Below, in pieces: positions 35,400-60,447 of a stretch of DNA of 64,000 nt. Both the position numbers and the translations under genes were made by a program. The stretch is taken from contig NZ_JAGQBH010000001.1 in the NCBI RefSeq assembly GCF_024345535.1, forward strand, positions 496,001 to 560,000, read 5' to 3'. The notes beneath the pieces were generated by a model. The model ran no database searches and was not told the origin of the DNA. It saw only the letters and a list, made by a program, of their open reading frames with translations. The stretch is from Cyanobium sp. N.Huapi 1H5. Lineage in GTDB: Bacteria > Cyanobacteriota > Cyanobacteriia > PCC-6307 > Cyanobiaceae. The stretch's first letter is position 1. The number at the start of each line of letters is the position of its first letter.

Positions 35400-36530
35400 T
35401 TGACGTCAGCCGCACCGCTGTCCCCCGTGCCCCTGCTTCGAGCCCTGCGACGTCTGGGCCGGCAGCCCACCATGCAGGACTGGCCGGGGCTGATCGAGGC
35501 CTACCGCAGCTGGCTGCCCGTCAGTGACGCCACCCCGGTGGTGACCCTGCGGGAGGGGGCGACCCCCCTGATTCCGGCGCCGGTGATCGCCGAACGGGTG
35601 GGCCGGGGCGTGAAGGTGTTCCTCAAGTACGACGGCCTCAACCCCACCGGCTCCTTCAAGGACCGGGGCATGACGATGGCCATCAGCAAGGCCAAGGAGG
35701 CGGGCTCGGAGGCGGTGATCTGCGCCAGCACCGGCAACACCTCGGCGGCGGCGGCGGCCTACGCGCGCCGGGGCGGGATGCGGGCCTTCGTGCTGATCCC
35801 CGACGGCTACGTGGCCCAGGGGAAGCTGGCCCAGGCCCTGCTCTACGGCGCCGAGGTGCTGGCGGTGCAGGGCAACTTCGACCGGGCCCTGGCGATCGTG
35901 CGGGACGTGGCCGACCGCTACCCGGTCACCCTGGTCAATTCCCTCAACCCCTACCGGCTGCAGGGGCAGAAGACGGCCGCCTTCGAGGTGGTCGACGCCC
36001 TCGGTGAGGCCCCCGACTGGCTCTGCATCCCGGTGGGCAACGCCGGCAACATCAGCGCCTACTGGATGGGCTTCAAGGAGTACCGCCAGGCGGGCCACAG
36101 CACGGTCCTGCCGCGGATGATGGGCTTCCAGGCCGCCGGGGCCGCCCCGATGGTGCTGGGGCACACGGTGGAGCAGCCCGACACGATCGCGACGGCGATC
36201 CGCATCGGCAATCCGGTGAACAAGGAGAACGCCCTCAACGCCCGAACCGAGAGCAACGGCGACTTCATGGCCGTCACCGACGCCGAGATCATCGAGGCCT
36301 ACAAGCTGCTGGGCCAGGGGGAAGGGGTGTTCTGTGAGCCCGCCAGCGCCGCCTCGGTGGCGGGCCTGATCAAGCGACGGGAGGAGGTGCCGGCCGGCGC
36401 CACGGTGGTGTGCGTGCTCACCGGCAACGGCCTCAAGGACCCGACGACGGCGATCGAGAACAACGACGCCACCTTCCACACGGGCATCGCCCCCGAAACC
36501 GAGACCGTCGCCAAGGTGATGGGCTTCTGA
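35400..36530 (+). CDS. thrC: threonine synthase
   Basis: PLP enzyme converting O-phosphohomoserine to threonine. Up to 376 residues, class close to bacterial/archaeal short forms. The PLP-lysine motif is in [20 protein letters not shown], the phosphate-binding loop in [16 protein letters not shown] and [16 protein letters not shown], and the C-terminus has [17 protein letters not shown] at 35400 gives the longest form; an internal ATG at 35472 is an alternative. It borders the candidate replication origin upstream of dnaN. Confidence 0.94.
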
Positions 36531-36939
36531 TCGGCTGCTGCTGAACAGTCCGCAGCGGACCTTTTCACACCCGACGGTGGCCCAACCGTCTGGGGAAATC
36601 CTGGGACATTCCCCACCGCACCCCGGGAGAGCCGGGGGAGGGGAAACCCCCGTGGGCGGATCGCGGATTCCCCAGGCCCGGGAATCGGTGGAAAACCCCT
36701 GGAAACGGCCCCATTCCGGCGCCGATTCCCCAGCCATCGAGACCAGAAAACCCAGTGATGGAAAGGGGAGTGAACCGCTTTACCCGTTTTCCCCCGCCCC
36801 TACTGCGACGGGCTGTTTTTCTTCTTCTCAATCCTTGATTGATCCTCTGATCAGTCGGGGAGCCACCCGTTGCGCTTTGGCGCGCGCTGTGAAACCGTGG
36901 GGCCTCACGAACGCCGTGCCGCCCTCGCCGGCCCCCGCC
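36531..36939. other. oriC: candidate chromosomal replication origin (thrC-dnaN gap)
   Basis: A 409-base gap directly upstream of dnaN, where cyanobacterial origins are often placed. DnaA-box-like motifs: TTTTCACAC (36562-36570), GGTGGAAAA (36687-36695, reverse complement TTTTCCACC, one mismatch to the cyanobacterial TTTTCCACA), GATTCCCCAG twice (36666-36675 and 36724-36733), and TTTTCCCCC (36787-36795). A pyrimidine- and AT-rich tract (about 36812-36848) could be the unwinding element and is unusual for this GC-rich genome. It also holds the dnaN promoter, not resolved here. Confidence 0.55.
36548..36565 (+). terminator. possible weak terminator of thrC
   Basis: GTCCG-CAG-CGGAC hairpin (36548-36560) followed by CTTTT, 17 bases after the thrC stop. 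The T run is short, so this is a weak prediction. Confidence 0.35.
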
Positions 36940-38103
36940 ATGAAGCTGGTCTGCTCCCAGGCTGAACTCAGCGCCAGCCTCCAGCTGGTCAGCCGGGCGG
37001 TGGCGACCCGCCCCACCCATCCGGTGCTGGCCAACGTGCTGCTCACCGCCGATGCGGGCACCGGCCGCCTCAGCCTCACGGGCTTCGACCTCAGCCTCGG
37101 CATTCAGACGAGCCTGCCCGCCGCCGTCGAGACCAGCGGTGCCATCACCCTGCCGGCGAAGATGTTCGGCGAGATCGTGGCCCGCCTGGCCACCGACAGC
37201 CCCATCAGCCTCAGCTGCCCGGAGGGCGAAGAGCAGCTGGAGCTGACCAACCTCTCGGGCAGCTACAAGATGCGGGGGATGCCCGCCGACGACTACCCGG
37301 ACCTGCCCCTGGCCCAGAGCAGCACGCCGATCCGCTTCCATGCCGAGGCCCTGGTGAAGGGCCTGCGGGCCACCCTGTTCGCCAGCAGCCCCGATGAGAA
37401 CAAGCAGCTGCTGACGGGCGTGCACCTGCGCCTCGATGGCGAAGGCCTGGAGTGCGCCGCCACCGACGGCCACCGCCTGGCGGTCCAGCGCCTCTCCCAC
37501 GCCGTGGAGGCCTCCGGCGGCGAGCCGCCGGCCGCCGATGGCGAGGACTTCGCCGTCACCGTGCCGGCCCGTTCCCTGCGGGAGCTGGAGCGGATCCTCT
37601 CGGGCCGCGGTTCCCAGGAGCCCCTGAGCCTGTTCTGCGAGCGCGGCCAGGTGGTGGTGCTCTCCGCCGACCAGGTGCTCACCAGCCGCAGCCTCGACGG
37701 CACCTACCCCAACTACCGCCAGCTGATCCCGCCGTCGTTCCAGCGCCGCATGGTGCTCGATCGCCGCGCCTTCATCGCCGCCCTCGAGCGGATGGCGGTG
37801 CTGGCCGACCAGCACAACAACGTGGTCAAGATCAGCGCCGACCCGGCCGCCGGCACGGCCACGATCCGGGCCGATGCCCAGGACGTGGGCAGCGGCTCGG
37901 AATCGCTGGCGGCCACGATCGAGGGGGAGGCGATCGAGATCGCCTTCAACGTCCGCTACCTGCTCGATGGCCTCAAGGCCATGGGCTCCGACCAGGTGGT
38001 GCTGCAGTGCAACGCCGCCACCACTCCGGCCGTGCTGGCGCCGGTGGGGGCCGATGAGGCGTTCACCTACCTGGTGATGCCCGTCCAGATCCGCACCAGC
38101 TGA
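36940..38103 (+). CDS. dnaN: DNA polymerase III beta subunit (sliding clamp)
   Basis: Ring-shaped clamp that tethers DNA polymerase III. The 387-residue product begins KLVCSQAELSASLQLVSRAV and shows the three-domain layout, with NKQLLTGVHLRLDGEGLECAATDGHR in the middle and the C-terminal peptide-binding end YLVMPVQIRTS. ATG at 36940 is fixed by the conserved N-terminus. It stands next to the candidate origin and is followed after 4 bases by the PRC-barrel-like gene, then purL and purF, as in picocyanobacterial genomes that are numbered from dnaN. Confidence 0.96.
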   Translation: MKLVCSQAELSASLQLVSRAVATRPTHPVLANVLLTADAGTGRLSLTGFDLSLGIQTSLPAAVETSGAITLPAKMFGEIVARLATDSPISLSCPEGEEQLELTNLSGSYKMRGMPADDYPDLPLAQSSTPIRFHAEALVKGLRATLFASSPDENKQLLTGVHLRLDGEGLECAATDGHRLAVQRLSHAVEASGGEPPAADGEDFAVTVPARSLRELERILSGRGSQEPLSLFCERGQVVVLSADQVLTSRSLDGTYPNYRQLIPPSFQRRMVLDRRAFIAALERMAVLADQHNNVVKISADPAAGTATIRADAQDVGSGSESLAATIEGEAIEIAFNVRYLLDGLKAMGSDQVVLQCNAATTPAVLAPVGADEAFTYLVMPVQIRTS

Positions 38104-46326: not shown

Positions 46327-46427
46327 GAAGGGCGTCTGTACATGGGGTCTGTACAGATTAGGGCTTGTGGTGATGGGGATTGGGACTGGCGTGGGAACTC
46401 TCAAGAGTCCCCCCCACCCTCAAGGCC

Positions 46428-47399
46428 ATGACCGACGCCTGCCGTTCCCCCGGCCTGATCCAGCGCTATCGCGAGGAGCTTCAGGTGCGCCATTACGCCC
46501 GCCGCACCGTGAACACCTACGAGCAGTGGCTGCGTCGCTTCCTGCGGTTTCACGGCAGGCGCCACCCCCGCACGATGGGCAGCGCCGAAGTGAACGCCTT
46601 TCTGAGCCACCTGGCGGTGGAGCTGCAGGTGAGCGCCTCCACCCAGAACCAGGCACTGGCGGCGCTGCTGTTTCTGTACCGGGAGCTGCTGGAGCGGGAT
46701 CTGGAGCTGGAGGGGGTGGTTCGGGCGCGGACACGGCGCCGGCTGCCGGTGGTGCTCAGCGAAGCGGAGGTGCGGGCGGTGCGCCAGCGACTGGAGGGAG
46801 AGCCAGCCCTGGTGGTGGGGCTGCTGTATGGAAGCGGGCTCCGGTTGATGGAGGCGCTTCGACTGCGAGTCAAAGATCTCGATGTTGAACGGCGTGAGCT
46901 CACGGTGCGCGACGGGAAAGGCGGCAAAGACCGGCTGACCGTGCTGCCCCAGAGCCTGGTGCCTCAGCTGCAGGAGCATCTGATGAAGGTGCGCCAGCTG
47001 CATCGGGGTGATCTGGTGGCGGGCTGGGGCCGGGTGGTGATGCCCTACGCCCTGGCGAGGAAGTATCCGAGGGCCGATCGGGAGTGGGCCTGGCAGTGGG
47101 TGTTTCCCCAACAGAACCGCTGGCATGATCGGGACTCAGGAACCCAGGGCCGCCACCACCGCGATCCGAGCGTGGTGCAGAAGGCGGTGAAGCGGGCCGT
47201 AGCCGAGGCGGGACTCACGAAGGCGGCCAGTTGCCACACCTTCCGCCACTCCTTTGCAACCCACCTGCTGGAACGGGGGCAGGACATCCGCACGATCCAG
47301 GAGCTGCTGGGACATCAGGACGTGAGCACCACCATGATCTACACCCATGTGCTGAATAGGGGGCCGCTCGGTGTCTGCAGCCCAGCAGACATGATGTAG
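46428..47399 (+). CDS. intI: integron integrase IntI
   Basis: Tyrosine recombinase of 323 residues that inserts and excises gene cassettes at attI and attC. Catalytic residues are all present: Arg139 ([10 protein letters not shown]), His270 and Arg273 (CHTFRH), His296 (GHQD) and Tyr305 (TMIYTH). Each sits exactly seven positions before its counterpart in IntI1 (Arg146, His277, Arg280, His303, Tyr312). The IntI-specific insertion before the His/Arg motif is visible ([20 protein letters not shown], about 206-225), which separates it from XerC/D. The end ([15 protein letters not shown]) is typical of IntI. ATG at 46428 is chosen by homology. It appears intact. No LexA box was recognised. Confidence 0.95.
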
Positions 47400-48683: not shown

Positions 48684-48693
48684 TTGACGAGCA

Positions 48694-48778
48694 GCCCAAC
48701 ATCAAGATCCAGCGGACGAGATCAGTAGAGTGTCCAAGTCGACCATCTCGTGCTCGCCGCTGATCTTGAGCGTTATGC
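48694..48778 (+). other. attC1 (end of cassette 1)
   Basis: 85 bases: R'' GCCCAAC (48694-48700), R' GTTATGC (48772-48778). Inner arms ATCAAGATC...AGCGG and CCGCTGATCTTGAGCG pair to form the attC hairpin. Same sequence family as attC4, attC5 and attC8. Confidence 0.85.
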
Positions 48779-48843
48779 ATGCCTTGCCAGAACCATTCCC
48801 AATGCCTAGACTAGCTTTGTGATTCTGCCTCACGAGCGATAAC

Positions 48844-49740
48844 GTGGAAGCAAAGATTGACATCTCGTCTAAGAGCCTTGAGAAGGGTTTAGATATTGCG
48901 AAAGAGTTTCTTCAGAGGGTGATTGGGCCTGGACTTGAAGAGGCTGGTCTTCTGCTTAAGGAAAGCATTGCTTTGTGGAGATTCAGAAATCAAGTCGCCA
49001 TTCTCGAAAAGGCACATGAAATATGCCAGAGGAAGGGAATAAGACCCAGCCCAATATCGCTAAAGCTTCTTTGCCCATTGATGGACAGCGCCTCTTTAGA
49101 GGATGACCCTGACCTGCAGAATAAGTGGGCAACACTGCTCTCAAACATGGTCGATTCAGAAAAGAATATTCAGAATCATGTATTCCCCTACATCCTTGGG
49201 CAGCTGTCGCTACCCGAATATGCGCTTCTGGATGTCGTAGTTCGTGAGAAGCGTGACCGAGTTAAGCGGCTTGGCGAGGAGCTGGCAAAGCACAACGAGC
49301 ACTTTGGCGACCTTGAGAATGGGATTAATCAGAAGCTCGCCGAAGTGAAGCAGTCAATCGCTTCAGAGAAGGAGCTGCCAAATGGGTTTGAACAACTTAA
49401 GAAGATTAGTCAGTTAGTTGCGCAGAGGGGCAAGCTCAATTCCGAGCTTGCGGGCTTAAGGGTTAAGGGCAGACAGATTGAGTTCAGGATTGCCGAACCG
49501 CAACAGATACCCGACGGGGCCTTAAAAGATTTTGAAGTTTCAAATCTTATACGACTGGGCTTGGCAAAGTTCCTTCGCGAGCCCTTTGCCGATCCTGTGC
49601 AGATTCAAATTCCTAATGATCCCAGGGATGATTACCTGTCAACAGAAGTAGAAGTTATTGTTGAATACACTGATACGTATGTCATCACTGAGCTTGCGGA
49701 GCTCTTAATTCTGGCCTGTTCAGAAGACTTGGATGCATAA
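48844..49740 (+). CDS. Abi-alpha (DUF4393) protein (cassette 2)
   Basis: 298 residues from a GTG start. The N-terminal 100 residues carry the Abi_alpha/DUF4393 pattern: IGPGLEEAGLLLKESIALWR, FRNQVAILEKAHEICQRKGI, LKLLCPLMDSASLEDDPDLQ and NKWATLLSNMVDS. A coiled-coil region follows (about 135-215). Family members are linked to abortive phage infection, but the mechanism is not known. Leader of about 70 bases after the preceding attC; the stop overlaps the attC2 R'' core. Confidence 0.8.
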   Translation: MEAKIDISSKSLEKGLDIAKEFLQRVIGPGLEEAGLLLKESIALWRFRNQVAILEKAHEICQRKGIRPSPISLKLLCPLMDSASLEDDPDLQNKWATLLSNMVDSEKNIQNHVFPYILGQLSLPEYALLDVVVREKRDRVKRLGEELAKHNEHFGDLENGINQKLAEVKQSIASEKELPNGFEQLKKISQLVAQRGKLNSELAGLRVKGRQIEFRIAEPQQIPDGALKDFEVSNLIRLGLAKFLREPFADPVQIQIPNDPRDDYLSTEVEVIVEYTDTYVITELAELLILACSEDLDA

Positions 49741-49824
49741 CATGCCTCTGGAGTGGGCAGGCCGCCATCGATGCTCTGCTCGCGTTGAAATGTTATTGCC
49801 TGCCACTCAGAGGCAGCGTTATGC
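49735..49824 (+). other. attC2 (end of cassette 2)
   Basis: 90 bases: R'' GCATAAC (49735-49741) overlapping the stop codon, R' GTTATGC (49818-49824). R'' is the exact complement of the GTTATGC that starts cassette 2. Arms GGAGTGGGCAGGC and CCTGCCACTC pair. Same family as attC6, attC9 and attC11. Confidence 0.87.
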
Positions 49825-49901
49825 CTCCTGCGCCAAGGCATGAAATGGCAAGTCAATGGAAAAACACCTATCATCACTGACAATTTAGGTGAGGTCTGGC
49901 A

Positions 49902-50861
49902 ATGCAAGACGAACAACCCAGTCCTGCCAATGGAAGTGAAGACGGTAAATCCCCTCAGCCTCAGAACTCGACCAATGCATCACAAGGTTCTCAAGCAGTG
50001 AATGCAGCAAAGCCTGCCAGTGTGATCAAGAACGCCAAGACAGCCCAGCCGATTGAAATGCTGGATGAACTTCTTTTTGTAGACACAAATGTATTGCTTG
50101 ACTTTTATCGAATTCGAAACAGCGATATTAGCCTTGAATACCTAAAGCAGCTTGAGGCATGCAAAGATCGGCTAATCATTACTTCTCAAGTTGAAATGGA
50201 ATACAAGAAGAACAGGCAAGAAGCCATCATTGAATCCCTGAATAGCTTTGGCTCACCAGATTGGAATAAGCTTAGCGGGCCGGCCATTGTTGCCGATCTT
50301 CAAGCAATGAAGATGATTGGAAAGCAGAAGGATGAAATCACGAAACAACAGAAGAGGGTTAATGAGAAAATTCAAATGATCCTTAAGAATCCAACTAATA
50401 ATGATCCTGTTTACCAGTGCTTGCAGCGTCTCTTTAAGAATAGATCAAGCTACAATCTGTCGCGCGAGAAAAGCACTCGGTTTACGGTAAGGAATCTCGC
50501 AAAGAAAAGATTCATCCTTGGCTACCCACCTCGAAAAAAGAATGAGACATCAATCGGCGATTCGGTAAACTGGGAATGGATTGTCCAGTGCGCAGTAGAC
50601 AGCGGCAAGCATATCATCATCGTTACTCGGGACAAAGACTACGGAGCGATCTATAAAGGCAGTTCATTTCTTAATGATTGGCTACGTCAAGAGTTTTCCG
50701 AGCGCGTCAGCCGAAAACGGAAGATAATTCTTACTGAGAAACTAGCAATTGCCCTTAAGCTAGTGCATGCTGCTGTCACCAAAGAGATGGAAGAAGAGGA
50801 GGATCGGATCATAGCCGAAGTGGTTGACAGTTCTCCTGAATCGTCTGTCGATGAGGCATAA
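49902..50861 (+). CDS. PIN-domain (DUF4935-like) nuclease (cassette 3)
   Basis: 319 residues. Residues 1-50 are a polar, Gln/Ser/Asn-rich leader. The PIN domain starts LLFVDTNVLLDFYRIRNSDI with the first catalytic Asp at 61, continues with TSQVEMEYKKNRQEA (conserved Glu), and ends SIGDSVNWEWIVQCAVDSG and IIIVTRDKDYG (later acidic residues). The spacing fits DUF4935-type PIN proteins, with a helical insertion. The C-terminus is acidic. Likely a metal-dependent RNase; a defence or toxin role is inferred from family and setting. No antitoxin gene is present in the cassette. Confidence 0.75.
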   Translation: MQDEQPSPANGSEDGKSPQPQNSTNASQGSQAVNAAKPASVIKNAKTAQPIEMLDELLFVDTNVLLDFYRIRNSDISLEYLKQLEACKDRLIITSQVEMEYKKNRQEAIIESLNSFGSPDWNKLSGPAIVADLQAMKMIGKQKDEITKQQKRVNEKIQMILKNPTNNDPVYQCLQRLFKNRSSYNLSREKSTRFTVRNLAKKRFILGYPPRKKNETSIGDSVNWEWIVQCAVDSGKHIIIVTRDKDYGAIYKGSSFLNDWLRQEFSERVSRKRKIILTEKLAIALKLVHAAVTKEMEEEEDRIIAEVVDSSPESSVDEA

Positions 50862-50915
50862 CATTGGCTTTGAGTCCGACAACCCTACGGGTTGCGGCTC
50901 AAGCCAGCGTTGGCG
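50856..50915 (+). other. attC3 (end of cassette 3)
   Basis: Short 60-base site: R'' GCATAAC (50856-50862), R' GTTGGCG (50909-50915). TTGGCTTTGAGTCCG and CGGCTCAAGCCAG form a near-continuous hairpin with inner arms ACCC/GGGT. R'' exactly complements the GTTATGC that starts cassette 3. Confidence 0.82.
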
Positions 50916-51069
50916 GGATCCGAGCAAGGCTTTAGTCAACTCCTACTTGCATAAGGATGGGACTTCAAGGAACCTCGATAAGAACCGGACCAACCTTCAC
51001 TTGCAACTGAGCAGAACGCCTTAATCTACTATTCTGACTATCCGTCAAGGAGATGCAAAGGGCAAACAT

Positions 51070-52422
51070 TTAAGGCGCCCTTCTACACACACTGGGAATT
51101 AAACAGTAGAAGGCATCGTGATACCATCTTTTCGATCCCTTGTCGTCATCCGTCGCCGTTTGCGATTGGAGGGTCCGCATGACCCCTTTGTCAATGGCCA
51201 ACTCAGCAGTTATAGTCGAAAGGTCCTTGTCTCCCAAAACAGTTGGCTCCTCCGTCGCGTACGGTTCCTCCCATGGCAGACGTAGAGGCTGGAACAGTGA
51301 TACTGCTACAACCTTTTCGAGCCTGCCCCTAATTCTACGAATAAACACATATTGCCTGTTCTCATTATATACAGCATTGCGCAAACTCTTAACAGCATAA
51401 ACTTCATTCTTAGGTTCAACATGGTAAAAGTGGCTTGTGGTCTGCTTCACCTGTGGGCAGCTATTGGCTGACAAACCTAGTTGCTTATCAGGTTCATAAA
51501 ACTTAGCTCCACTTAACATTGATCCCGTAAAGTCAGCGCCCATTAGGCGTGTACAAACAAGGGTAGCCCTAAACAAGGATGCATCCTCAAGGTTTGCATC
51601 AATAAGAGAAGATCTTTCGATTTTAGCGTCGCTGAGGTTGGCGCCCTTTAGATTTGCGCCGATCATACTGGTACGCACTAGATTCGCGCCTTGAAGATTT
51701 GCATATTGAAGGTCAACTCCGTCAAGATTTAGGCCTTCCAAGTCGGCTCCTTTGAGGTTAGCCCTTGCGAGGCTTCCGCCAGCACCAGCTATTAGACCGC
51801 GACTTTTCCCGTTAGGCAGTGTGTTAAGGCCTGTTGACTGAAGAGATTGGATTACCAGACGTTGTCTACGGGGATCTAGCGACTGAATTGCGATAAATGT
51901 TTTGGCACGTGCGATTGAGAAAGCAGTATCATCTGGATTCCAGTTTCTACAGTTTGTCGTTAAGACTTGGCAATCCCATGGGTCTTCTTCTTTGACAAGT
52001 GACATGATATCCTTAAGATATTCATCCAATAACTTCTGGCGTTCATCGTCAGCCGCCTTATCGATTTCCAGATTTTTTTGAGCAAGAGCGTTCTGAAGAG
52101 AATCTCTCTGAGAAGCACTATTGTAACTATTGGTTATCCAGAGTATCGCCAAAGGCAGCCCAACCAACTGTACTAAATCTAATGCAGTTTTTCCTGGCAG
52201 GCCAGTCTTTTGCCAAAAACAGTGCCAAATGTATCTTGCTCTTGTGAGCTGCCTAAGTTGCCAGTTATGTAACATGTGACCTGCATCTTCCCAATCAGTC
52301 TCAGCGTTGCCATTAATCTCTTTTGCTTCTCGCTTGGACCACAGTCTCTCTGCAAGAAACGCTCTGAGCGCTTTTGAGTATTGTTTGCTACCAGGCTTTT
52401 CCACAGTGTCCTCCACCTGCAC
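51070..52422 (-). CDS. membrane pentapeptide-repeat protein with DUF2934-like start (cassette 4, reversed)
   Basis: 450 residues. Residues about 20-55 (FLAERLWSKREAKEINGNAE, then TDWEDAGHML) resemble DUF2934. A membrane helix follows near 80-97, then a charged linker. Residues about 210-300 are a pentapeptide-repeat helix with repeats such as ANLKG, ADLEG, LNLDG, ANLQG, ANLKG and ANLED. The C-terminal 140 residues match nothing recognised. The gene is opposite in direction to the other cassettes, so it must use its own promoter. About 150 bases between its stop and attC3 hold nothing recognised. Confidence 0.75.
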   Translation of the reverse strand: MQVEDTVEKPGSKQYSKALRAFLAERLWSKREAKEINGNAETDWEDAGHMLHNWQLRQLTRARYIWHCFWQKTGLPGKTALDLVQLVGLPLAILWITNSYNSASQRDSLQNALAQKNLEIDKAADDERQKLLDEYLKDIMSLVKEEDPWDCQVLTTNCRNWNPDDTAFSIARAKTFIAIQSLDPRRQRLVIQSLQSTGLNTLPNGKSRGLIAGAGGSLARANLKGADLEGLNLDGVDLQYANLQGANLVRTSMIGANLKGANLSDAKIERSSLIDANLEDASLFRATLVCTRLMGADFTGSMLSGAKFYEPDKQLGLSANSCPQVKQTTSHFYHVEPKNEVYAVKSLRNAVYNENRQYVFIRRIRGRLEKVVAVSLFQPLRLPWEEPYATEEPTVLGDKDLSTITAELAIDKGVMRTLQSQTATDDDKGSKRWYHDAFYCLIPSVCRRAP

Positions 52423-52552
52423 CGGGCAATACTTCTACGGAAACCACATAGCCTGCCTTTCGCTTTGTATTTCTTAATCAGCAGTGCACGTTGGATCTAT
52501 GTACGCAGCAGATAGTCTTGAGATTCAAAGTAGACTCTATTGCTAGGAAACC

Positions 52553-52637
52553 CTCCAACAACCAGATGCAGAAGACGGGAGCACAGTCTGGGGCCAATGC
52601 CGAGGTTGCTGCCCGCTTCTGATCTGGAGCGTTATAC
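52553..52637 (+). other. attC4 (end of cassette 4)
   Basis: 85 bases: R'' CTCCAAC (52553-52559), R' GTTATAC (52631-52637). CCAGAT...CAGAAG pairs with CTTCTGATCTGG. R'' differs by one base from the complement of the cassette start (GTTGGCG). Belongs to the attC1/5/8 family. Confidence 0.8.
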
Positions 52638-52772
52638 AGACCAGGCTAGCTAGACATGAAACGCGACATTCGAAGTGGCCATCAGGAAATTCAGATATCT
52701 GCGACTCTCCATACGGCTACTCCACGCATAGTGAGGATATGCTATTAATCGTCAGACGAAGGGAGTGCCTAA

Positions 52773-53306
52773 ATGGCTGACAGTAAGACGTGGGCCGATG
52801 TTGCGCATACTGCCGTACAAGTAGGTCTTGCCGCATTGATCGGAGGCGGCTTCACTCTTTTGGCAACCGCCCTAAATACTGATCGACAACGAAAGCAAGA
52901 GTTAGTTAAACGGAGGCTTGAGCTTTTGGAGACTGCCTGCACAGAGATAAACCTCTACTTCGACCAGTTAACTAATGTCAATTCCATTTTACGACGAGAG
53001 CTGAGGAGTCTCGAAGCTGGAAACCCTTTACGATATAAAGACCAGCTAGACAGAAACAAAGCAGAGCTTTTTGAAAGATCCTCGGGGCTGTTTGCAGCTG
53101 AGGCCAAACTCCAGATCCTCAGGGAGAAGTCCTGCACAGAGATCTATCGAAAGTTCTTTTCGGCGAATGCCGCCTATGCAGATGTAGCTACCATCGGCAA
53201 TGAAAGCTGCACCATTGAGATTCTTCATCAGAGGTTTCAAAAGATTGTTGCCGCACGAGACGAGCTTCTAGATGCTCTTGGTCGTGCATACACTCGAAGT
53301 GTCTAG
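52773..53306 (+). CDS. membrane-anchored helical protein of unknown function (cassette 5)
   Basis: 177 residues. One N-terminal membrane helix (about 14-33, VGLAALIGGGFTLLATAL), then a charged RQRKQELVKRRLELLE stretch and a long helical, coiled-coil-like cytoplasmic region. No named family recognised. The layout (short N-terminus, one helix, cytosolic coiled coil) is like that of small membrane-tethered effectors or sensors. ATG at 52773, about 140 bases after the preceding attC core, room for its own promoter. Confidence 0.65.
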   Translation: MADSKTWADVAHTAVQVGLAALIGGGFTLLATALNTDRQRKQELVKRRLELLETACTEINLYFDQLTNVNSILRRELRSLEAGNPLRYKDQLDRNKAELFERSSGLFAAEAKLQILREKSCTEIYRKFFSANAAYADVATIGNESCTIEILHQRFQKIVAARDELLDALGRAYTRSV

Positions 53307-53329
53307 CTTAAATGCTCTTGAGCCAAACT

Positions 53330-53413
53330 GTATAACATCAAGATTCAGAAGATGGTAGCAAAGGGCGACACCTATGCCAAGGACAATGTCCGCTTCTGAT
53401 CTTGGCGTTGGGC
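53330..53413 (+). other. attC5 (end of cassette 5)
   Basis: 84 bases: R'' GTATAAC (53330-53336), R' GTTGGGC (53407-53413). Arms ATCAAGATTCAGAAG and CTTCTGATCTTGG pair. R'' exactly complements the GTTATAC that starts cassette 5. attC1/4/8 family. Confidence 0.86.
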
Positions 53414-53511
53414 AGCCAAAGGGAAGAATCAGGTCTTTCCCCTGTGTAAGATCAGCCTAACAATCAAATTTGAAGCGTCGGCTGCTTCCATCCTCTCAGA
53501 TTCAATTTACA

Positions 53512-54393
53512 ATGACAGCTTCACCCATTTCCAATTTCAGCAGTCTGTTAGAAATTGCATTTGGCATGAATGCAGTTTCAGGAGTTATACAAGTGCGAGT
53601 CAAGGACGATTATGCGCTTCTCAGACAACATCTTTCATCCGCCGCTTCAGAGTACTGTGATGAATCGGAAGGAGAATCGACCTCAGTAAGAGACTTACTT
53701 ACCAAGGTAAGTCGTAGATTCAGCAAAAGACTAGAAGGTGCTAGCCAAGCCTGCTCAGCATTAGTGATAGCTTTTTGCATCATATCCTTGTTTCTGCTTT
53801 TGCTGTCAAGTCTTAACCCTTCATGTTCAATAGGTAACATGGCTACGGCCACGATTGTCTCATTGCTTATTACAGGTCCTATCCTTATCTTGGCAATATT
53901 TATAGTGCTCTCAAAGGCAAACGCGATAAATGCAATAAATCAGGTTCAAAGGATCTGTTTCGAGCTGGAATCGAGTTGCCTTCATCCAAGCGGAGTGATT
54001 TCCATGAAGAGGATTGGAGAGAGAGTAGGTATCAGCATGCCAAGTCATGATAAAGGAGTGCTCGATCGCTTAGCCGCATGGCTTGCTGGGGTGCGAACAA
54101 TTAAAGTGAATATGAGCGAGATCGAGCCCGAGGTGGCCAACCTCTTAAAAACGGAAGGCAAGGAGTTCACAGAAGAGAATGCATATGAAGGAGTTTCAAA
54201 GGCCATGGGATTTCTTTTTCTGCTATATGAGAAGGAAAAACGCTCGCCCGGATCAATGCTCAGGTTCTCAGGAAATGGGAAGGATATCGACATTCCCATA
54301 AGTAAAATAATCGACGGAATAGCTCATGGCAAGGATCCTGCTGAGATCTTATCCCTTGACAATCCTGAATCAGATGAAAGTACTAGAATCTAG
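53512..54393 (+). CDS. two-helix membrane protein of unknown function (cassette 6)
   Basis: 293 residues from the ATG at 53512 (a TTG 14 codons upstream is possible). A soluble N-terminal region (about 1-75) is followed by two membrane helices (about 80-105 and 112-135), then a large cytosolic C-terminal region rich in charged residues. No family recognised. Lower GC than the host. The two helices with cytosolic domains on both sides recall membrane sensor proteins, but no function can be stated. Confidence 0.6.
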   Translation: MTASPISNFSSLLEIAFGMNAVSGVIQVRVKDDYALLRQHLSSAASEYCDESEGESTSVRDLLTKVSRRFSKRLEGASQACSALVIAFCIISLFLLLLSSLNPSCSIGNMATATIVSLLITGPILILAIFIVLSKANAINAINQVQRICFELESSCLHPSGVISMKRIGERVGISMPSHDKGVLDRLAAWLAGVRTIKVNMSEIEPEVANLLKTEGKEFTEENAYEGVSKAMGFLFLLYEKEKRSPGSMLRFSGNGKDIDIPISKIIDGIAHGKDPAEILSLDNPESDESTRI

Positions 54394-54411
54394 TACACGT
54401 TTTTTATTGCT

Positions 54412-54502
54412 ACCCAACAAGCCCCTCGAGTGGACATGCCACCACCAGCGCTCTGCTGCGCACCCCACACTCTTTGCCTGCAACTCATGGGCAGCGTTAG
54501 CT
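54412..54502 (+). other. attC6 (end of cassette 6)
   Basis: 91 bases: R'' ACCCAAC (54412-54418), R' GTTAGCT (54496-54502). CGAGTGGACATGCC pairs imperfectly with the TGCCTGCAACTCATGGGCAG arm. R'' has one mismatch to the complement of GTTGGGC, which starts cassette 6. attC2/9/11 family. Confidence 0.83.
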
Positions 54503-54552
54503 GCACAGGAAGGCCGAGGTCGGTATCGTTGATGTGATGGTGGCGCTTTCGG

Positions 54553-54786
54553 ATGACGACAATCCTCAGAAGCGGTCCATATAGGGTCTACTTCTACAGT
54601 CACGAGCCAAACGAGCCTCCCCATGTTCATGTCGACAGAGATAAGGCGTCTTGCAAAGTCTGGCTTGTTCCTGTGGCACTGTCCTCAAGCCTTGGTTTCA
54701 GCGCCAGAGAGCTGCGTGAAATTGAACGGCTGGTCAGCTTGAACAGAGCTATCCTGCTGAAAGCATGGGAGGAGTTTCATGGCTAA
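54553..54786 (+). CDS. DUF4160 protein (cassette 7, putative toxin-antitoxin pair)
   Basis: 77 residues with the DUF4160 pattern: RSGPYRVYFYSHEPNEPPHV, HVDRDKASCKVWL and a C-terminal helix FSARELREIERLVSLNRAIL ending LKAWEEFHG. Its stop overlaps the DUF2442 gene by 8 bases. DUF4160-DUF2442 pairs are common in bacteria and are listed as putative toxin-antitoxin modules; which partner is toxic is not established. Placement in an integron fits a stabilising toxin-antitoxin cassette. Confidence 0.8.
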   Translation: MTTILRSGPYRVYFYSHEPNEPPHVHVDRDKASCKVWLVPVALSSSLGFSARELREIERLVSLNRAILLKAWEEFHG

Positions 54787-55039
54787 CCCTGGTGAGCAGG
54801 TCACTGACGTTGCGTTGACAGAAGACAGGCTGATCGTCGACCTGGCTGACGGTCGTTCTATCTCGGTACCGTTGGCTTGGTTCCCAAGGCTTCTACATGC
54901 AACCTCCCAGGAGCGTGACAACTGGGAGATTGCAGGGGCTGGCTACGGAATCCACTGGCCAGATGTTGATGAGGATTTAAGTGTGGAAGGCCTGCTTCGA
55001 GGTGCGCCAGCGCCCCAGGCAAAGGCTCTGGTCAGCTAA
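54779..55039 (+). CDS. DUF2442 protein (cassette 7, putative toxin-antitoxin partner)
   Basis: 86 residues: TDVALTEDRLIVDLADGRSI, VPLAWFPRLLHATSQER and GYGIHWPDVDEDLSVEGLL, the classical DUF2442 signature. Overlaps the DUF4160 gene by 8 bases and ends inside the attC7 R'' core. Expected to act with its neighbour. Confidence 0.82.
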   Translation: MANPGEQVTDVALTEDRLIVDLADGRSISVPLAWFPRLLHATSQERDNWEIAGAGYGIHWPDVDEDLSVEGLLRGAPAPQAKALVS

Positions 55040-55123
55040 CACCGCCATGCACCTGAGCCGCCGCCGTAACGTTATACTCTTCGCCGCGCAAACCTTGCGG
55101 CCAGGTGATAGCGAGCGTTAGCT
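55034..55123 (+). other. attC7 (end of cassette 7)
   Basis: 90 bases: R'' AGCTAAC (55034-55040), R' GTTAGCT (55117-55123), perfectly complementary. Inner arms CACCTGAGCCGC and GCGGCCAGGTG pair. Not obviously in either of the two main attC families. Confidence 0.85.
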
Positions 55124-55347
55124 GGCTTCGTTTAAAGCCATAACACTTCACCTTCGCTGATATCTATGCCTGCAATAGAGTATGGATGCGCCTTAGTATT
55201 TGCTTGAGATGATCTCTAGTATGTGAAAGTCATCCACAGAAATTCTTTGTGCTGACAGCCATCTAGACATTGGATTGAATTGGGCAAATCTATCTGCCAA
55301 ATGCTAAAGTGATAATTGCTACTCAATTCTCTGAATTAAAATCCAAT

Positions 55348-55701
55348 ATGAAGGTAGAGATTCTCGTTGCTCTCATTACTGCCGTAGTCTCAATTGGGCT
55401 CGCAGTTCTTAGCGCTTATGTAACATCGAGATCACAAGTAAAGCAACTGGAAAGACAGTTTTTGCTTGATTACAAAGCGGAACGAGTGGTTCGTCGGCTC
55501 TTGGAGCATCCGAAATGGAGGCTCAGAACATTTGCGGCTATCAAGTATCACGTTGCAGGTTTTGAGGACAATGAGCTTCGACGTATTTTAATTCGGGTTG
55601 GTGCCATTAGGTTTGAGGATGACCAGAACATTGAAATATGGGGTCTTATGACTAGAAATCAGGACCTGATTGATTCCGAGGTTGGAACTAGTGATTTTTA
55701 G
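55348..55701 (+). CDS. single-helix membrane protein of unknown function (cassette 8)
   Basis: 117 residues from the ATG at 55348 (a GTG 13 codons upstream is possible). One N-terminal membrane helix (KVEILVALITAVVSIGLAVL) followed by a basic stretch and a small cytosolic domain with LLEHPKWRLRTFAAIKYHVA and DNELRRILIRVGAI, which could be a small helical or winged-helix-like domain. No family recognised. About 230 bases of AT-rich leader precede it and may hold its own promoter. Confidence 0.6.
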   Translation: MKVEILVALITAVVSIGLAVLSAYVTSRSQVKQLERQFLLDYKAERVVRRLLEHPKWRLRTFAAIKYHVAGFEDNELRRILIRVGAIRFEDDQNIEIWGLMTRNQDLIDSEVGTSDF

Positions 55702-55759
55702 CTGACTATCATTAGGTGATGCGTACAGATGATCCCAGAAGACGGTCGTTGTGTTTTCC

Positions 55760-55843
55760 AGCTAACATCAAGATACATAAGACGGGAGCACAGGGTGCCC
55801 TTCCACCACAAGCGAACGCCCGCTTCTGATCTTGGCGTTAGCT
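55760..55843 (+). other. attC8 (end of cassette 8)
   Basis: 84 bases: R'' AGCTAAC (55760-55766), R' GTTAGCT (55837-55843), perfectly complementary. Arms ATCAAGATACATAAGACGGG and CCCGCTTCTGATCTTGG pair. attC1/4/5 family. Confidence 0.88.
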
Positions 55844-55868
55844 GAGTGATCAAGTCACATTTTTCCGC

Positions 55869-57275
55869 ATGACCAAAACGTTTAGCCTAGATCACATCGT
55901 CGATAGTTCCAGATTCACAATCTTACTTGGAAAGAATGGTGCTGGTAAGAGCACACGCATGCGAGAGCTTGACTCCTCGCCGTCATTGAATACTAAATAT
56001 ATCTCCCCGGAAAGGGGAGGCACGCTAAAATACGATCCCAACGTAGACAATAATATTGCCACCAGTCAAGGCTGGTTAGAAAATACTCGGCGACAGAATA
56101 GATTCGAACAGTTCCGACAGCAGAGTGCGGCACAGTTTAGATCTCTAGAGGTCTTGATTCTAAGAGAGATTGAGCGAGATGCTGAGAAACGCAATGACCA
56201 CGCATACACGTTCGACCGTGTTCTCGGACAGATAAACAACCTCTTGCCGGCCATTTGCCTCGTGAGGTCTGACAAGGGCTTTTCAATACAATCAAAAGAC
56301 GGAGTACTAATACCTGAAGAGAATATTTCTAGCGGTGAATCAGAGCTTATAGCTTTGGCCATCGAAGTACTTGTGTTTTCTCGTTCGGAGATGTCCGACA
56401 AGATTTTGCTCCTTGATGAGCCTGATGTTCATTTGCACCCCGATCTTCAGCAAAGGTTTATTGCATTTGTCGAACTCATTGCGATAGAGAAAGAAATTAA
56501 GGTTGTGATATCGACGCATAGTACTGCAATAATCTCGGCTTTCTCTGAAGGTTCAGATCTTGCTATTGTGCCAGTTTCACATAAAGGCCAGTCACAGTTC
56601 GGTTTATTTAGACGATCTAACATATGTGATGAAATACTTCCAATTTTTGGCGCCCACCCGTTATCCAGTATATTTAATCGCAGTCCAGTCGTTCTAGTCG
56701 AGGGTGAGGATGACAAGCGCGTATTAGAGCAGGCAATTCGGTCGAGCAATGGACGACTTAGGTTTTCACCCTGTGTAGTAGGAACAGTTGCTGAATTGAA
56801 CGAGTGGGAAGCTTGGCTAAATCAATTTTTGCCGGTTCTTTATGATGAGCCGAAAGGATACTCGCTTCGTGATCTCGACGACTCTTCACAGTGCGAAATC
56901 GAAGATCTAGGGCTTGTTTGCAGAATCCGTATCAACTGCTATTCAATAGAGAATTTGCTTCTCACCGAAGAGTGCCTTACTTATCACGACTTTACAGAAC
57001 AGAGCTTTATCGCTGAGTGCGTAAAATGGAAGAACCAATTTCCTCTGCATAAGTCTGCGGCCGAAATGTCAACCTTGATTGACAGATTCTGCGATAGAAG
57101 GGCCATTAAAGTTAAAAGCCTAAGGAACATTATTGTCGCACTGCTGGGCACTAACAAGCCGTGGGAGGTTGTCGTGGGCCAGTTAATTGCAAGAGGCATT
57201 GGCAATGGCAATAGTTCAGAGCACTCAGTCAGCCATTACTTGGGAAGCAAGGCAATTGATCAACTCTTCAGCTAA
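55869..57275 (+). CDS. OLD-like ATPase with Toprim domain (cassette 9)
   Basis: 468 residues. The N-terminal ABC-type ATPase has Walker A GKNGAGKST (21-29), signature ISSGESE (153-159), Walker B ILLLDEPDVHLHP (179-191) and a switch His in ISTHSTA. A Toprim-like half follows, with VVLVEGEDDKRVLEQA (acidic Glu/Asp at 278-282) and LRDLDDS (333-339). This is the layout of OLD-family overcoming-lysogenization-defect nucleases, many of which act in phage defence. No UvrD-like or reverse-transcriptase partner is in the cassette, so it is a solitary class-1-like protein. Starts only 31 bases after the attC8 recombination point. Confidence 0.82.
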   Translation: MTKTFSLDHIVDSSRFTILLGKNGAGKSTRMRELDSSPSLNTKYISPERGGTLKYDPNVDNNIATSQGWLENTRRQNRFEQFRQQSAAQFRSLEVLILREIERDAEKRNDHAYTFDRVLGQINNLLPAICLVRSDKGFSIQSKDGVLIPEENISSGESELIALAIEVLVFSRSEMSDKILLLDEPDVHLHPDLQQRFIAFVELIAIEKEIKVVISTHSTAIISAFSEGSDLAIVPVSHKGQSQFGLFRRSNICDEILPIFGAHPLSSIFNRSPVVLVEGEDDKRVLEQAIRSSNGRLRFSPCVVGTVAELNEWEAWLNQFLPVLYDEPKGYSLRDLDDSSQCEIEDLGLVCRIRINCYSIENLLLTEECLTYHDFTEQSFIAECVKWKNQFPLHKSAAEMSTLIDRFCDRRAIKVKSLRNIIVALLGTNKPWEVVVGQLIARGIGNGNSSEHSVSHYLGSKAIDQLFS

Positions 57276-57361
57276 CAAGCCTCTCGAGTGGACAGGCCAC
57301 CATCAACTATCCGCTGCGCCGTCCCAGACTCCTTGCCTGCCACTCAGGGGCAGCGTTAGGT
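57270..57361 (+). other. attC9 (end of cassette 9)
   Basis: 92 bases: R'' AGCTAAC (57270-57276, overlapping the stop codon), R' GTTAGGT (57355-57361). R'' exactly complements the GTTAGCT that starts cassette 9. Arms CGAGTGGACAGGC and GCCTGCCACTC pair. attC2/6/11 family. Confidence 0.88.
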
Positions 57362-57389
57362 TTACTTGAGATCAGGATGGAACATCACG

Positions 57390-57986
57390 ATGATCATTTG
57401 GATTAACGGACCGTTTGGAGTCGGAAAGACCCAGACCGCTTATGAGCTTAACTATCGCATCCCGAACTCAATCGTTGTGGACCCAGAAGAAGTTGGGTTC
57501 TTCCTGCAGAAACAGATACTGCCAGAAAGTAGACTTCCCGATTTCCAGGACTATCCATTGTGGAGAAAGTGGGTGTCGGAACTTCTCCATGAAGCACAGA
57601 ATGACAGAAATCGTGTGGTCATTGTACCGATGACCGTTGTATCAGAGGCCTACTTCCGGCAAATCATCAACCCATTAGACGATGCTGGAATTGTTGTGCA
57701 AGACTTCACCCTGATTGCTAGGAAAGAGACAATCGAAAGACGCCTCAAGAAGCGATTTGATGGTGGGTCCTGGAACTTTCGGCAAATCGACAGGTGTTTG
57801 AGTGGTCTCGAGTCAGATGTTTTTTCAAATAAGATCGACACTGATCGTATGGATCTGTATCAAGTGGTCGACTGCATTTTGAATGAGCTGCCCCCGGAGA
57901 TTGATTCAATTCGCAAAAAGAGTGGTCGTGGCGCAAGATTTATTAGAAGACTCCGTGTCTTCCTTGCTCACATTAGAATCGTTTAG
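57390..57986 (+). CDS. TmrB-like P-loop protein (cassette 10)
   Basis: 198 residues. The P-loop WINGPFGVGKTQTAYEL at the very N-terminus (Walker A residues 7-14) and a DPEEVGFFL segment match the TmrB/shikimate-kinase-like group of P-loop proteins; later residues TLIARKETIERRLKKR fit the family's lid region. TmrB confers tunicamycin resistance by binding the drug; here the ligand is unknown. ATG at 57390 is fixed by the P-loop. Followed after 9 bases by a methyltransferase gene with no attC between, so the cassette carries two genes. Confidence 0.78.
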   Translation: MIIWINGPFGVGKTQTAYELNYRIPNSIVVDPEEVGFFLQKQILPESRLPDFQDYPLWRKWVSELLHEAQNDRNRVVIVPMTVVSEAYFRQIINPLDDAGIVVQDFTLIARKETIERRLKKRFDGGSWNFRQIDRCLSGLESDVFSNKIDTDRMDLYQVVDCILNELPPEIDSIRKKSGRGARFIRRLRVFLAHIRIV

Positions 57987-57995
57987 AAGCTTCTC

Positions 57996-58619
57996 ATGGC
58001 AAGTCTTCCCAGTGCACTAGCTTCTGTTCCATGGAATCACAACTCTCATTATTATGACTTCATCTTATCAAGGCTCCCTGCTTCTAGAGGGAAAGCTCTT
58101 GATGTTGGGTGTGGGAAAGGCGATTTCGCTGTCATGCTGGGTTTCCATTTTGAGGAAGTAGATGCTATCGATCTTGACCAGCGGGCGATCCAGTCTGCCC
58201 GGGAGCATTATGCAGGCCATGACAACGTTAGGTTTCATCTAGATAGCTTCTTGAAATACCAATGTTGCGATAGTCAATATGACTTCATCAGTATGATCTC
58301 GAGCCTCCACCATATGGATCTCGAAATGGCTATTGCAAAAGCAACGCAACTTCTGAGAACAGGAGGTGCAATATTTATACTAGGATGCTATCGTGAGTCG
58401 GGACTTATTGACTTCATCTGCGGTTCTGTTGCGATTCCTGCAAATATGATTTATTGTCTATTCAGAGGCTCAGAAGAGAAAGATGCCATAGAAATGGTAA
58501 CCGTGCCTGCGACGTGCACCATAAGCCAGATCGGGAAGGAGATGCATAGGTTGCTTCCAGGCCACGTATTCAGAAGGCACTTGTTCTGGAGGTATTCAGT
58601 GGAATGGAGAAAAACCTAA
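57996..58619 (+). CDS. class I SAM-dependent methyltransferase (cassette 10)
   Basis: 207 residues. The SAM-binding glycine motif is KALDVGCGKGDFAVMLG (about 33-49), followed by VDAIDLDQRAIQSAREH and the post-II motif FISMISSLHHMDLEMAIAKA, LRTGGAIFILG. Small-molecule methyltransferase of unknown substrate. Second gene of cassette 10, 9 bases after the TmrB-like gene, so the two probably act together, perhaps in antibiotic or toxin modification. Confidence 0.82.
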   Translation: MASLPSALASVPWNHNSHYYDFILSRLPASRGKALDVGCGKGDFAVMLGFHFEEVDAIDLDQRAIQSAREHYAGHDNVRFHLDSFLKYQCCDSQYDFISMISSLHHMDLEMAIAKATQLLRTGGAIFILGCYRESGLIDFICGSVAIPANMIYCLFRGSEEKDAIEMVTVPATCTISQIGKEMHRLLPGHVFRRHLFWRYSVEWRKT

Positions 58620-58679
58620 CTCCAAGTTCGACGCCGACAGCCTGGCTTCGCCATGCTGCGGGTCAACTTGGAGTTCGAA
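58614..58679 (+). other. attC10 (end of cassette 10)
   Basis: Short 66-base site: R'' ACCTAAC (58614-58620), R' GTTCGAA (58673-58679). Arms TCCAAGTT and AACTTGGA form the hairpin. The R'' exactly complements the GTTAGGT that starts cassette 10, and R' exactly complements the TTCGAAC that ends cassette 11, so the boundary is well supported. A GTTAGGC farther on (58748) is not used as boundary. Confidence 0.8.
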
Positions 58680-58757
58680 GGATCGCAGGTGAAGTCGGCT
58701 TACGCCGTGCCGACAGTTGTGACATACTAATCGATAAGGACTTGCCAGTTAGGCCTT

Positions 58758-59126
58758 ATGCACTCTGCAGATCTTGCTGAACTCCAAAGAATAGATGCAA
58801 GGTTGAGGGATCTTCACGCTTCTCTTTGTAGACAAAAAGTTGAGATGCTCAATTCCTTAGGCGTGATCGTCGAGGAAAGGCTTTCAAGTCCTATGGATGT
58901 TGCAAAAGTTGCAGAGCTCAACGAGAAGCTTTCGCACATTGAAGCAATGCAAGAGGAGGTCTATCGGAAGTGGCAACAACCTAGAGATGCTGAGGTAGAG
59001 CTTGAGTTAGATCAACTGAAGAGGGGTAGTGGCAATTCAGATCGGGTGTACGGAACGGGAGAGAGGGGCGGAAACTATGAGGTCCGAATCTCAAAAAAGG
59101 GATCTGTCTTCAAGCGATACATCTAA
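58758..59126 (+). CDS. hypothetical helical protein (cassette 11)
   Basis: 122 residues, charged and mostly helical, with a coiled-coil-like segment (about 5-80) and a short basic end SKKGSVFKRYI. No family recognised. Only gene in its cassette; about 170 bases after its stop contain nothing recognisable before attC11. Confidence 0.5.
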   Translation: MHSADLAELQRIDARLRDLHASLCRQKVEMLNSLGVIVEERLSSPMDVAKVAELNEKLSHIEAMQEEVYRKWQQPRDAEVELELDQLKRGSGNSDRVYGTGERGGNYEVRISKKGSVFKRYI

Positions 59127-59293
59127 TCAAAAGACTACACTCAGGTGATCGCAGCCAAAGCTTCGAATCCATCTCGAAGGTTGCTCTGCCCTGGGTTTAA
59201 AGTTGAGCGCTCTTGTCAGATAGGAGGTAAAGCTTCCCTGAGTCCTACTCGTGTGGCAGATGTCCGCAGGCGGTACCTGTTTTGAAGCGACAC

Positions 59294-59384
59294 TTCGAAC
59301 ACACCCCCTCGAGTGGACAGGCCACCCTGTAATCGCTTCTCACGTTGAACTCACACTGCCTGCCACTCAGGGGCAGCGTTAGGC
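59294..59384 (+). other. attC11 (end of cassette 11)
   Basis: 91 bases: R'' TTCGAAC (59294-59300), R' GTTAGGC (59378-59384). Arms CGAGTGGACAGGC and GCCTGCCACTC pair. R'' exactly complements the GTTCGAA that starts cassette 11. attC2/6/9 family. Confidence 0.86.
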
Positions 59385-59501
59385 TGACGGACAAAGTAGA
59401 GATGAAGCCAAGACCGACCAGTACTGGGGACGTTGGATTCCAGCAATGAGCCATCTGCTTTGCCTAGGCTGCTGACTCAAGCCTACACTCGCGAAGTCAA
59501 C

Positions 59502-60346
59502 ATGACTATTAACTTTCCCGAGGATAAGTACGTTGAGGTTGATGGGATTAGAACGAGATATTGGACTTTGGGCGACAGGGGATCCGCGGTCCTGTTTATT
59601 CACGGCCAGGGGGGCGCAATTGACTATTGGTACAAGAATGTTTTCCCTATCGCTGAACATTATCAAGTCTATGCCTTGGACTGGGTTGGATCAGGCAAGA
59701 CTGATAAGCCAATCCAAACTTATGATCTTGATGATCTAAGTCAGTTCATTATCCGCTTCATGGACGTAGTCGGCTTGTCTCTTGCCACGCTGATCGCAGG
59801 CTCTGTGGGCGGCATTCTTGCACTGAAGATAGCCCTGCAGTCTCCAGCAAGAGTGGACAAGCTTGTATTGATAGGGGTCGGCGGCTTAGGTAAGGAAGTG
59901 GCCTTCCCCGCACGTCTGACTTCACTGCCAGGTGTAGGTAAGTCCTGAACCATCCCAGCACTGCGGCTGCGAAGTTCATGATGCAGCAGTGCGTCTATAA
60001 CCCAGAACCATATCTTAATGACAGCGAGTTCATGGCTATGGTGCTTCGGAATATGGCGTCTGACATTCTGCAGTTTCAAACTCGGACATTTCGAACGATG
60101 GGAAACATCTTTGGAATTAGGCCTGAAATCTGGCAAGAAATTCGAAGCCGACTGCCTGAGGTTACTGCTTCAACTCTCATCCTTTGGGGGCAGCAGGAAC
60201 GAGCATTCCCAGTGAGTCACGCTGAGATTGCAAAGAATGGCATCGCAAACTCCCAATCGAAGATATTTGATCAATGTGGCCACTTGCCATATCTCGAGTA
60301 TTCTGATGAGTTCAACAATACAGTGCTTGAGTTTCTTTCGACTTAG
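59502..60346 (+). pseudogene. alpha/beta hydrolase broken by a frameshift (cassette 12)
   Basis: The first part (59502-59948) encodes an alpha/beta hydrolase start: VEVDGIRTRYWTLGDRGSAV, VLFIHGQGGAIDYWYKN and VYALDWVGSGKTDKP, with a Gly-x-Val-Gly elbow (IAGSVGGILALKIAL). It stops at TGA 59946 after LPGVGKS. Reading continues in another frame as VLNHPSTAAAKFMMQQCVYN and then TLILWGQQERAFPVSHAEI to 60346, with the catalytic-His end GHLPYLEYSDEF. One missing base near 59938-59942 (AA for an expected GAA codon) explains the break. The elbow has Val in place of the usual Ser nucleophile pattern, so the enzyme may already be atypical. A sequencing error is also possible. Confidence 0.75.
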
Positions 60347-60360
60347 ATTGAGCCGCTGCA

Positions 60361-60447
60361 GCCCAACTTTAAGATAGAGCGGGCGGGAGTAGAAGCATTG
60401 TTTGATGGCTGAGACCACATTCCCGCCGCTGCTCCTGAGCGTTCACT
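60361..60447 (+). other. attC12 (last attC of the array)
   Basis: 87 bases: R'' GCCCAAC (60361-60367), R' GTTCACT (60441-60447). Arms GCGGGCGGGA and TCCCGCCGC pair. R'' has one mismatch to the complement of GTTAGGC that starts cassette 12. No further site was seen between here and 60495. Confidence 0.8.

Follow-up and report, generated by a model that had tools for sequence, protein, structure and literature searches.

The thrC-dnaN gap of Cyanobium sp. N.Huapi 1H5 as the probable chromosomal replication origin

The gap between thrC and dnaN in Cyanobium sp. N.Huapi 1H5 is very probably the chromosomal replication origin (oriC) of this bacterium. An earlier note on this DNA had proposed a candidate oriC next to dnaN, and the proposal is borne out by gene order, a profile match unique in the genome, a cluster of DnaA boxes, a switch in A/T asymmetry and the data of two complete relatives. 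We analyzed a window of 64 kb (contig C1, 496001-560000) from a genome of 3,137,012 bp in 12 contigs. The gap measures 409 bp and lies at 532.7 kb on C1.

Sequence elements of the gap

According to the available text of PMC4674748, the cyanobacterial DnaA box is TTTTCCACA. Measured against it, the gap and its borders contain the following features (window coordinates; strand given where one applies):

35400-36530, plus strand: thrC (threonine synthase), left border; TIGR00260, 327.5 bits
36531-36939: thrC-dnaN intergenic region, probable oriC, from gene order in relatives and the match to profile R1
36587-36605: invariant block CGTCTGGGGAAATCCTGGG, identical in the window and in 13 of the 13 closest relatives aligned
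36591-36599, minus strand: box ATTTCCCCA within the invariant block; 2 mismatches to TTTTCCACA
36666-36674, plus strand: putative DnaA box A, GATTCCCCA, in the first GATTCCCCAG repeat; 3 mismatches
36687-36695, minus strand: putative DnaA box B, TTTTCCACC, the best match, at a conserved position; 1 mismatch
36724-36732, plus strand: putative DnaA box C, GATTCCCCA, in the second GATTCCCCAG repeat, at the conserved position TTCC.CA; 3 mismatches
36778-36786, plus strand: degenerate DnaA box D, CTTTACCCG, aligning with the consensus TTTTCCCCG of relatives; 4 mismatches
36787-36795, plus strand: putative DnaA box E, TTTTCCCCC, aligning with TTTCC[A/C]CA of relatives; 2 mismatches
36796-36799: GC-rich spacer GCCC from box E to the trio element, by sequence and by a geometry like that of the basal unwinding system (BUS) in the available text of PMC8287927
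36800-36811: putative DnaA-trio element CTACTGCGACGG, opposite strand 3'-GAT-GAC-GCT-GCC-5', aligning with CTACTACTACT of low-GC relatives
36812-36856: AT-rich tract, presumed first-melting region
36869-36900: dnaN-proximal conserved elements GTTGCGCTTT and CTGTGAAACCGTGG, invariant in the window and 13 relatives
36940-38103, plus strand: dnaN (DNA polymerase III beta clamp), right border; TIGR00663, 314.9 bits

Among the matches listed for dnaN in the named set, the best is Synechococcus sp. BO 8801 (99%), followed at 95-97% by Aphanothece, Synechococcus, Cyanobium and similar strains, which marks the host as a freshwater picocyanobacterium of the Cyanobium type.

The three motifs that the earlier note had singled out are all present. 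GGTGGAAAA at 36687-36695 reads TTTTCCACC on the minus strand, one mismatch away from TTTTCCACA; the repeated GATTCCCCAG lies at 36666-36675 and 36724-36733 and nowhere else in the window; and the AT-rich tract spans about 36812-36856, with the least stable 60 bp of the gap (52% AT) starting at 36797. By frequency, these motifs are only mildly unusual relative to shuffled sequence: TTTTCCACM occurs twice in the window against 0.40 expected (at least two in 7 of 100 shuffles), and GATTCCCCAG twice against 0.31 expected (at least two in 4 of 100). Equally unstable 60-bp windows make up 0.07% of those starting in 3001-46000, and the tract is not unique, with 60 separate equally unstable places in the host-like DNA of C1. 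The strong evidence comes from comparison with relatives, because there the motifs hold conserved, regularly spaced positions.

Of the boxes in the gap, only B comes as close as one mismatch to TTTTCCACA. Exact copies, six in the genome, all lie outside the gap, and an exact search does not pick it out. When C1 (752.5 kb) was scanned with a relaxed box pattern, picked after the gap had been seen, its densest cluster was the gap, with six sites in 300 bp against two for the next best. One exact TTTTCCACA lies at 52397-52405, in a low-GC cassette region, with a weak origin-profile match around it (E 0.12).

The dnaA gene sits apart from the gap, on contig C9 (PF00308, 228.9 bits; PF08299, 95.2 bits), and its DNA-binding domain is uninterrupted. 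The recognition motif reads GGKDHSTVMYA, and 30 relatives (L190-L219) have GGKDH[S/T]TV[M/I]YA. We considered a private change of DnaA specificity and found no sign of one, as the motif fits the pattern of these relatives. GGKDHS is found in the DnaA of this genome (L001) and in 9 of the 30, and GGKDHT in the remaining 21; we take this S/T position in the C-terminal domain to be DNA-contacting.

Conservation of the layout in relatives

We searched 61 genomes of the family, 51 of which gave a dnaN match, and used the best 30 loci, our own included. In 28 of these thrC lies upstream of dnaN across a gap of 350-547 bp; in the other two, the sequence starts at a contig end 173 bp before dnaN. The same order was seen in 76 of 80 named loci (the best 80 of 172). 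Three of the other four have no upstream DNA or less than 500 bp, and the fourth (L134) has about 790 bp with no thrC match. This last locus (CALPNT020000155.1), titled as a Bifidobacterium breve bin, carries a picocyanobacterial dnaN (79% identity) and looks mislabelled. Two loci, L112 and L117, have longer gaps of 1,422 and 1,797 bp; their extra DNA lies on the thrC side of the first box block, and the downstream box layout is kept.

We aligned the gaps in two sets, one of 18 gaps and one of the window with 13 close relatives. Both show a fixed layout: first a block with a minus-strand box, then two inverted boxes spaced by about 20 bp and a third box, and after these a tandem box pair, CCCCTAC..CGACGG, a T-rich tract and the dnaN-proximal blocks. 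In this layout GGTGGAAAA corresponds to box B and the two copies of GATTCCCCAG to boxes A and C, positions at which relatives mostly carry TTTTCC[A/C]CA or a near form. In the window, boxes A and B form the inverted pair, 21 bp from start to start, with box A aligned to TTTTCC[A/C]CA of the relatives, and boxes D and E stand in tandem. From 36585 on, 156 of 355 gap sites are invariant among 14 sequences, compared with 72 of 186 fourfold sites of dnaN. Because this mean is barely above that of the fourfold sites, the conservation argument rests on the clustering of invariant sites in blocks, such as a 19-bp run.

A profile (R1) was built from 14 relatives, with the window and its sister left out. 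In the 3.14-Mb genome, where 150 of 327 first-look candidates were scored, the gap is the sole match at E up to 10 (E 2.1e-22, window 36668-36843); a second, weak match (E 0.055) overlaps it on the other strand. Of 20 genomes, our own included, 19 have their best R1 match next to dnaN, among them all seven from other families, in one of which (G073) it is weak (E 0.001). In the remaining genome, G070, the best match is on another contig, since the dnaN contig ends within dnaN. R1 matches alone could be explained by descent of a conserved spacer, so the functional pointer is the survival of the layout while nearby letters diverge.

Strand asymmetry and other readings of the gap

In the genome under study, strand asymmetry was measured on C1, about a quarter of the whole. 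Raw GC skew, the check named in the earlier note, shows no clean switch around the gap, the cumulative minimum of a 400-kb stretch lying at 730 kb, and GC skew at fourfold sites was uninformative on C1 (213 of 1000 permutations as large). The missing switch is not disqualifying, because most cyanobacterial genomes have irregular GC skew, as described in the available text of PMC7198777. We measured the A/T skew at fourfold sites (AT4) of 570 C1 genes called by a simple codon-model script, comparing plus- with minus-strand genes to remove the coding effect. AT4 does switch on C1, with a best breakpoint at 566 kb (560 kb for GC-rich genes only) and a bootstrap 95% interval of 520-584 kb (520-588 kb in another run). 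The gap at 532.7 kb is inside this interval and off its peak, the optimum being about 30 kb to its right. None of 1000 permutations was as strong anywhere on C1: the observed minima were -0.153 (all genes) and -0.150 (GC-rich genes), on a 2-kb grid, and the most extreme permutations -0.087 and -0.120, on a 10-kb grid. Genes transcribed in the direction of a fork leaving the gap are richer in T than those read against it (-0.145 at the gap). The strand difference is positive in all eight bins on the left side of the gap; on the right side the three full bins are negative and the last, partial bin (14 genes) is near zero.

Two complete relatives, each sampled at 40 stretches, agree. In G045, the A/T sign changes between 2260-2280 and 2327-2347 kb, with the dnaN gap at 2324.8 kb, and changes back near 1.0-1.06 Mb, at a distance of about 49% of the circle; three stretches at 1.33-1.48 Mb are off pattern, and raw GC skew does flip in this genome. 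In G079, the best A/T breakpoints are at 2280 and 2300 kb, with the dnaN gap at 2314.4 kb and no clean GC-skew switch; several stretches in the range 0.57-1.32 Mb give values close to zero or mixed ones. At about 1.82-2.0 Mb on contig C1 of G079, the A/T skew runs counter to the sign of its arm, as it would following an inversion.

The alternative that survives best, improbable as we judge it, is that replication does without DnaA or uses several origins, as in Synechocystis PCC 6803, the gap being what is left of an origin that once depended on DnaA. Eroded boxes and trios and irregular GC skew would fit such a history, and dependence on DnaA and oriC was lost several times among cyanobacteria (available text of PMC7198777); against this stand the A/T asymmetry of G045, with one main origin-like and one opposite switch, the invariant blocks, which the window and all 13 close relatives keep, and the retention of dnaA with a conserved DNA-binding domain.

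It is less probable still that the gap is mainly a regulatory region of dnaN, conserved for transcription, with the origin elsewhere. Its conserved blocks extend about 350 bp upstream and are built from elements resembling DnaA boxes and trios; in three genomes the strand asymmetry changes sign at or close to the gap, and R1 has no further match in the genome. This reading would draw on the strong blocks adjoining dnaN (36869-36900), which may be promoter elements, and on the 64-kb width of an asymmetry interval peaking about 30 kb from the gap. GTTGCGCTTT and CTGTGAAACCGTGG may indeed be a dnaN promoter and/or a regulator site; a sigma-70 promoter and terminator scan found nothing, including no promoter at 36869-36900. 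Finally, the gap might code for additional N-terminal residues of dnaN (frame 36577-38103, 508 aa), as this frame is open in the window and stays open across the entire gap in 4 of the 13 closest relatives. This reading can be dismissed, since most relatives have in-frame stops (9 of those 13, the frame being open through only 8 of 104 gaps) and dnaN begins M-K in 28 of 28 loci with the start shown.

We return to the gap as the probable oriC. It is intergenic, beside dnaN and a conserved neighbour, in a genome that encodes DnaA and shows a strand-composition switch; a box cluster shows up with the relaxed motif, though with one box within a single mismatch of TTTTCCACA and no exact copy. Counting against oriC are the single box within one mismatch, the two trios, the lack of a GC-skew switch on C1 and the AT4 peak about 30 kb off. 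DnaA made from C9 would bind the inverted pair A/B as well as boxes 0, C, D and E, and the tandem D/E boxes, next to the GCCC spacer, would guide DnaA-ATP onto the trio element. The adjacent T-rich tract would then open and the helicase would be loaded, with two forks departing, one through thrC and one through dnaN. The gap may be the only such origin of the chromosome.

Trio element, known origins and the neighbouring integron

The triplets of the window, read 3' to 5', are GAT and GAC, then GCT, GCC and CGA, followed in frame by CAA AAA GAA GAA GAG; two consecutive trios are thus in pattern before a break of three triplets. Low-GC relatives have CTACTACTACT or CTACTACTACG, with three or four repeats of 3'-GAT. 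The 14 close sequences have one or two in-pattern trios (12 called by script; L111 and L122 from the alignment), whereas three or four are retained by certain GC-rich relatives that fall outside the closest clade (L007, L145-L148, L153, L019). Across gaps, boxes correlate negatively with GC (rho -0.53, n=104), as do leading trios (rho -0.39, n=85), with ancestry ignored, two overlapping locus sets (e.g., L003/L120), the window among the rows, two short gaps dropped and no trio call in 19 of the 104.

In the available text of PMC8287927, three trios are minimally required in B. subtilis, with triplets counted by their central A; the BUS search program wants at least three, and it found such a BUS in 1755 of 2070 predicted origins. 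The window shares with the BUS the tandem boxes, a 4-bp GC spacer, a trinucleotide element and then AT-rich DNA (PMC8287927, as available). Where a BUS has a DnaA box no more than 16 bp from its trios, box E ends at 36795 and the element starts at 36800; where it has at least three consecutive 3'-NAN-5' triplets, the window has two. We call the element BUS-like only, because it falls short of the strict three trios. It is possible, if rather doubtful, that in the GC-rich lineage the 3'-GAT run became the conserved CTAC..CGACGGGCTGTTT block, with no more than one or two in-pattern trios, and that opening departs from the three-trio rule, through a changed contact of DnaA with the strand or less dependence on trios; the GC-rich relatives that keep three or four trios speak against such a rewriting. 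In the part of the literature covered, we found no statement on trio loss in GC-rich cyanobacteria.

The available texts on other cyanobacterial origins give a similar picture. DoriC 10.0 places cyanobacterial oriC usually next to dnaN (PMC6323995). Prochlorococcus origins are flanked by thrC and dnaN with DnaA boxes nearby (PMC2836286), and the window differs in its high GC, drifted boxes and unusable GC skew. Synechococcus elongatus PCC 7942 (PMC3480399, PMC4674748, PMC7198777) shares the dnaN adjacency, a dnaA located elsewhere and a box cluster; its oriC has 11 boxes, seven exactly TTTTCCACA, and another neighbour gene, and has been confirmed experimentally with DnaA essential. The oriC of Cyanobium gracile PCC 6307 shows, like the window, an A/T to G/C drift of the DnaA box, and the available part of that source (DoriC 10.0, PMC6323995) does not mention a changed trio element such as that of the window. 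Origins next to dnaN and their GC drift are thus already in print, and this gap is a further example.

The earlier note had also placed an integron within about 10 kb of the origin, and the integrase gene does start 9.4 kb from the gap. The gene at 46380-47399 encodes an integron integrase (TIGR02249, 451.6 bits, cut-off 265), a type of enzyme known in cyanobacteria (available text of PMC2426708). We surveyed 42 genomes of the genus, our own included, of which 41 have a dnaN match, 17 at 90% identity or more. In 14 of these 17 (G000, G066, G079, G080, G062, G071, G094, G064, G088, G089, G086, G005, G070, G085), the contig and strand that carry dnaN also carry an integron-integrase match, 7.7-11.7 kb downstream of it, partial or broken in several (G064, G088, G094, G086, G005). 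For G087 and G081, a search of the dnaN contig up to E 1e-30 gave no such match, and none was found in G063, where the contig ends 9.2 kb out. Of the 24 genomes with lower dnaN identity, two (G061, G105) show a same-strand match at 14.4-14.5 kb. In G084 and G090 the dnaN contig has matches on its opposite strand, and in the complete G083 the match is about 549 kb away. Judging from these positions, this looks like one integron inherited vertically next to the origin in a single clade; dosage or fork direction might keep it in that place. In the part of the literature covered, we found no title about where integrons lie in Cyanobium.

The low-GC stretch 3' of the integrase gene (48691-60395) contains spaced repeats, some ending in GCGTTAG and attC-like. 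Repeats on the 3' side of the integrase gene are not the usual integron arrangement. A second integron-integrase-like stretch (69% identity, residues 46-339) lies elsewhere in this genome, at C1:318321-319121.

For this GC-rich picocyanobacterium, the likely origin, and with it the likely extent of the replication arms, is now fixed, and an apparently inherited integron is placed next to the origin. A/T skew at fourfold sites works here where GC skew fails. The relatives form a natural series of origins, with boxes and trios that tend to be more eroded at higher GC; this series could serve to test the minimum number of trios.
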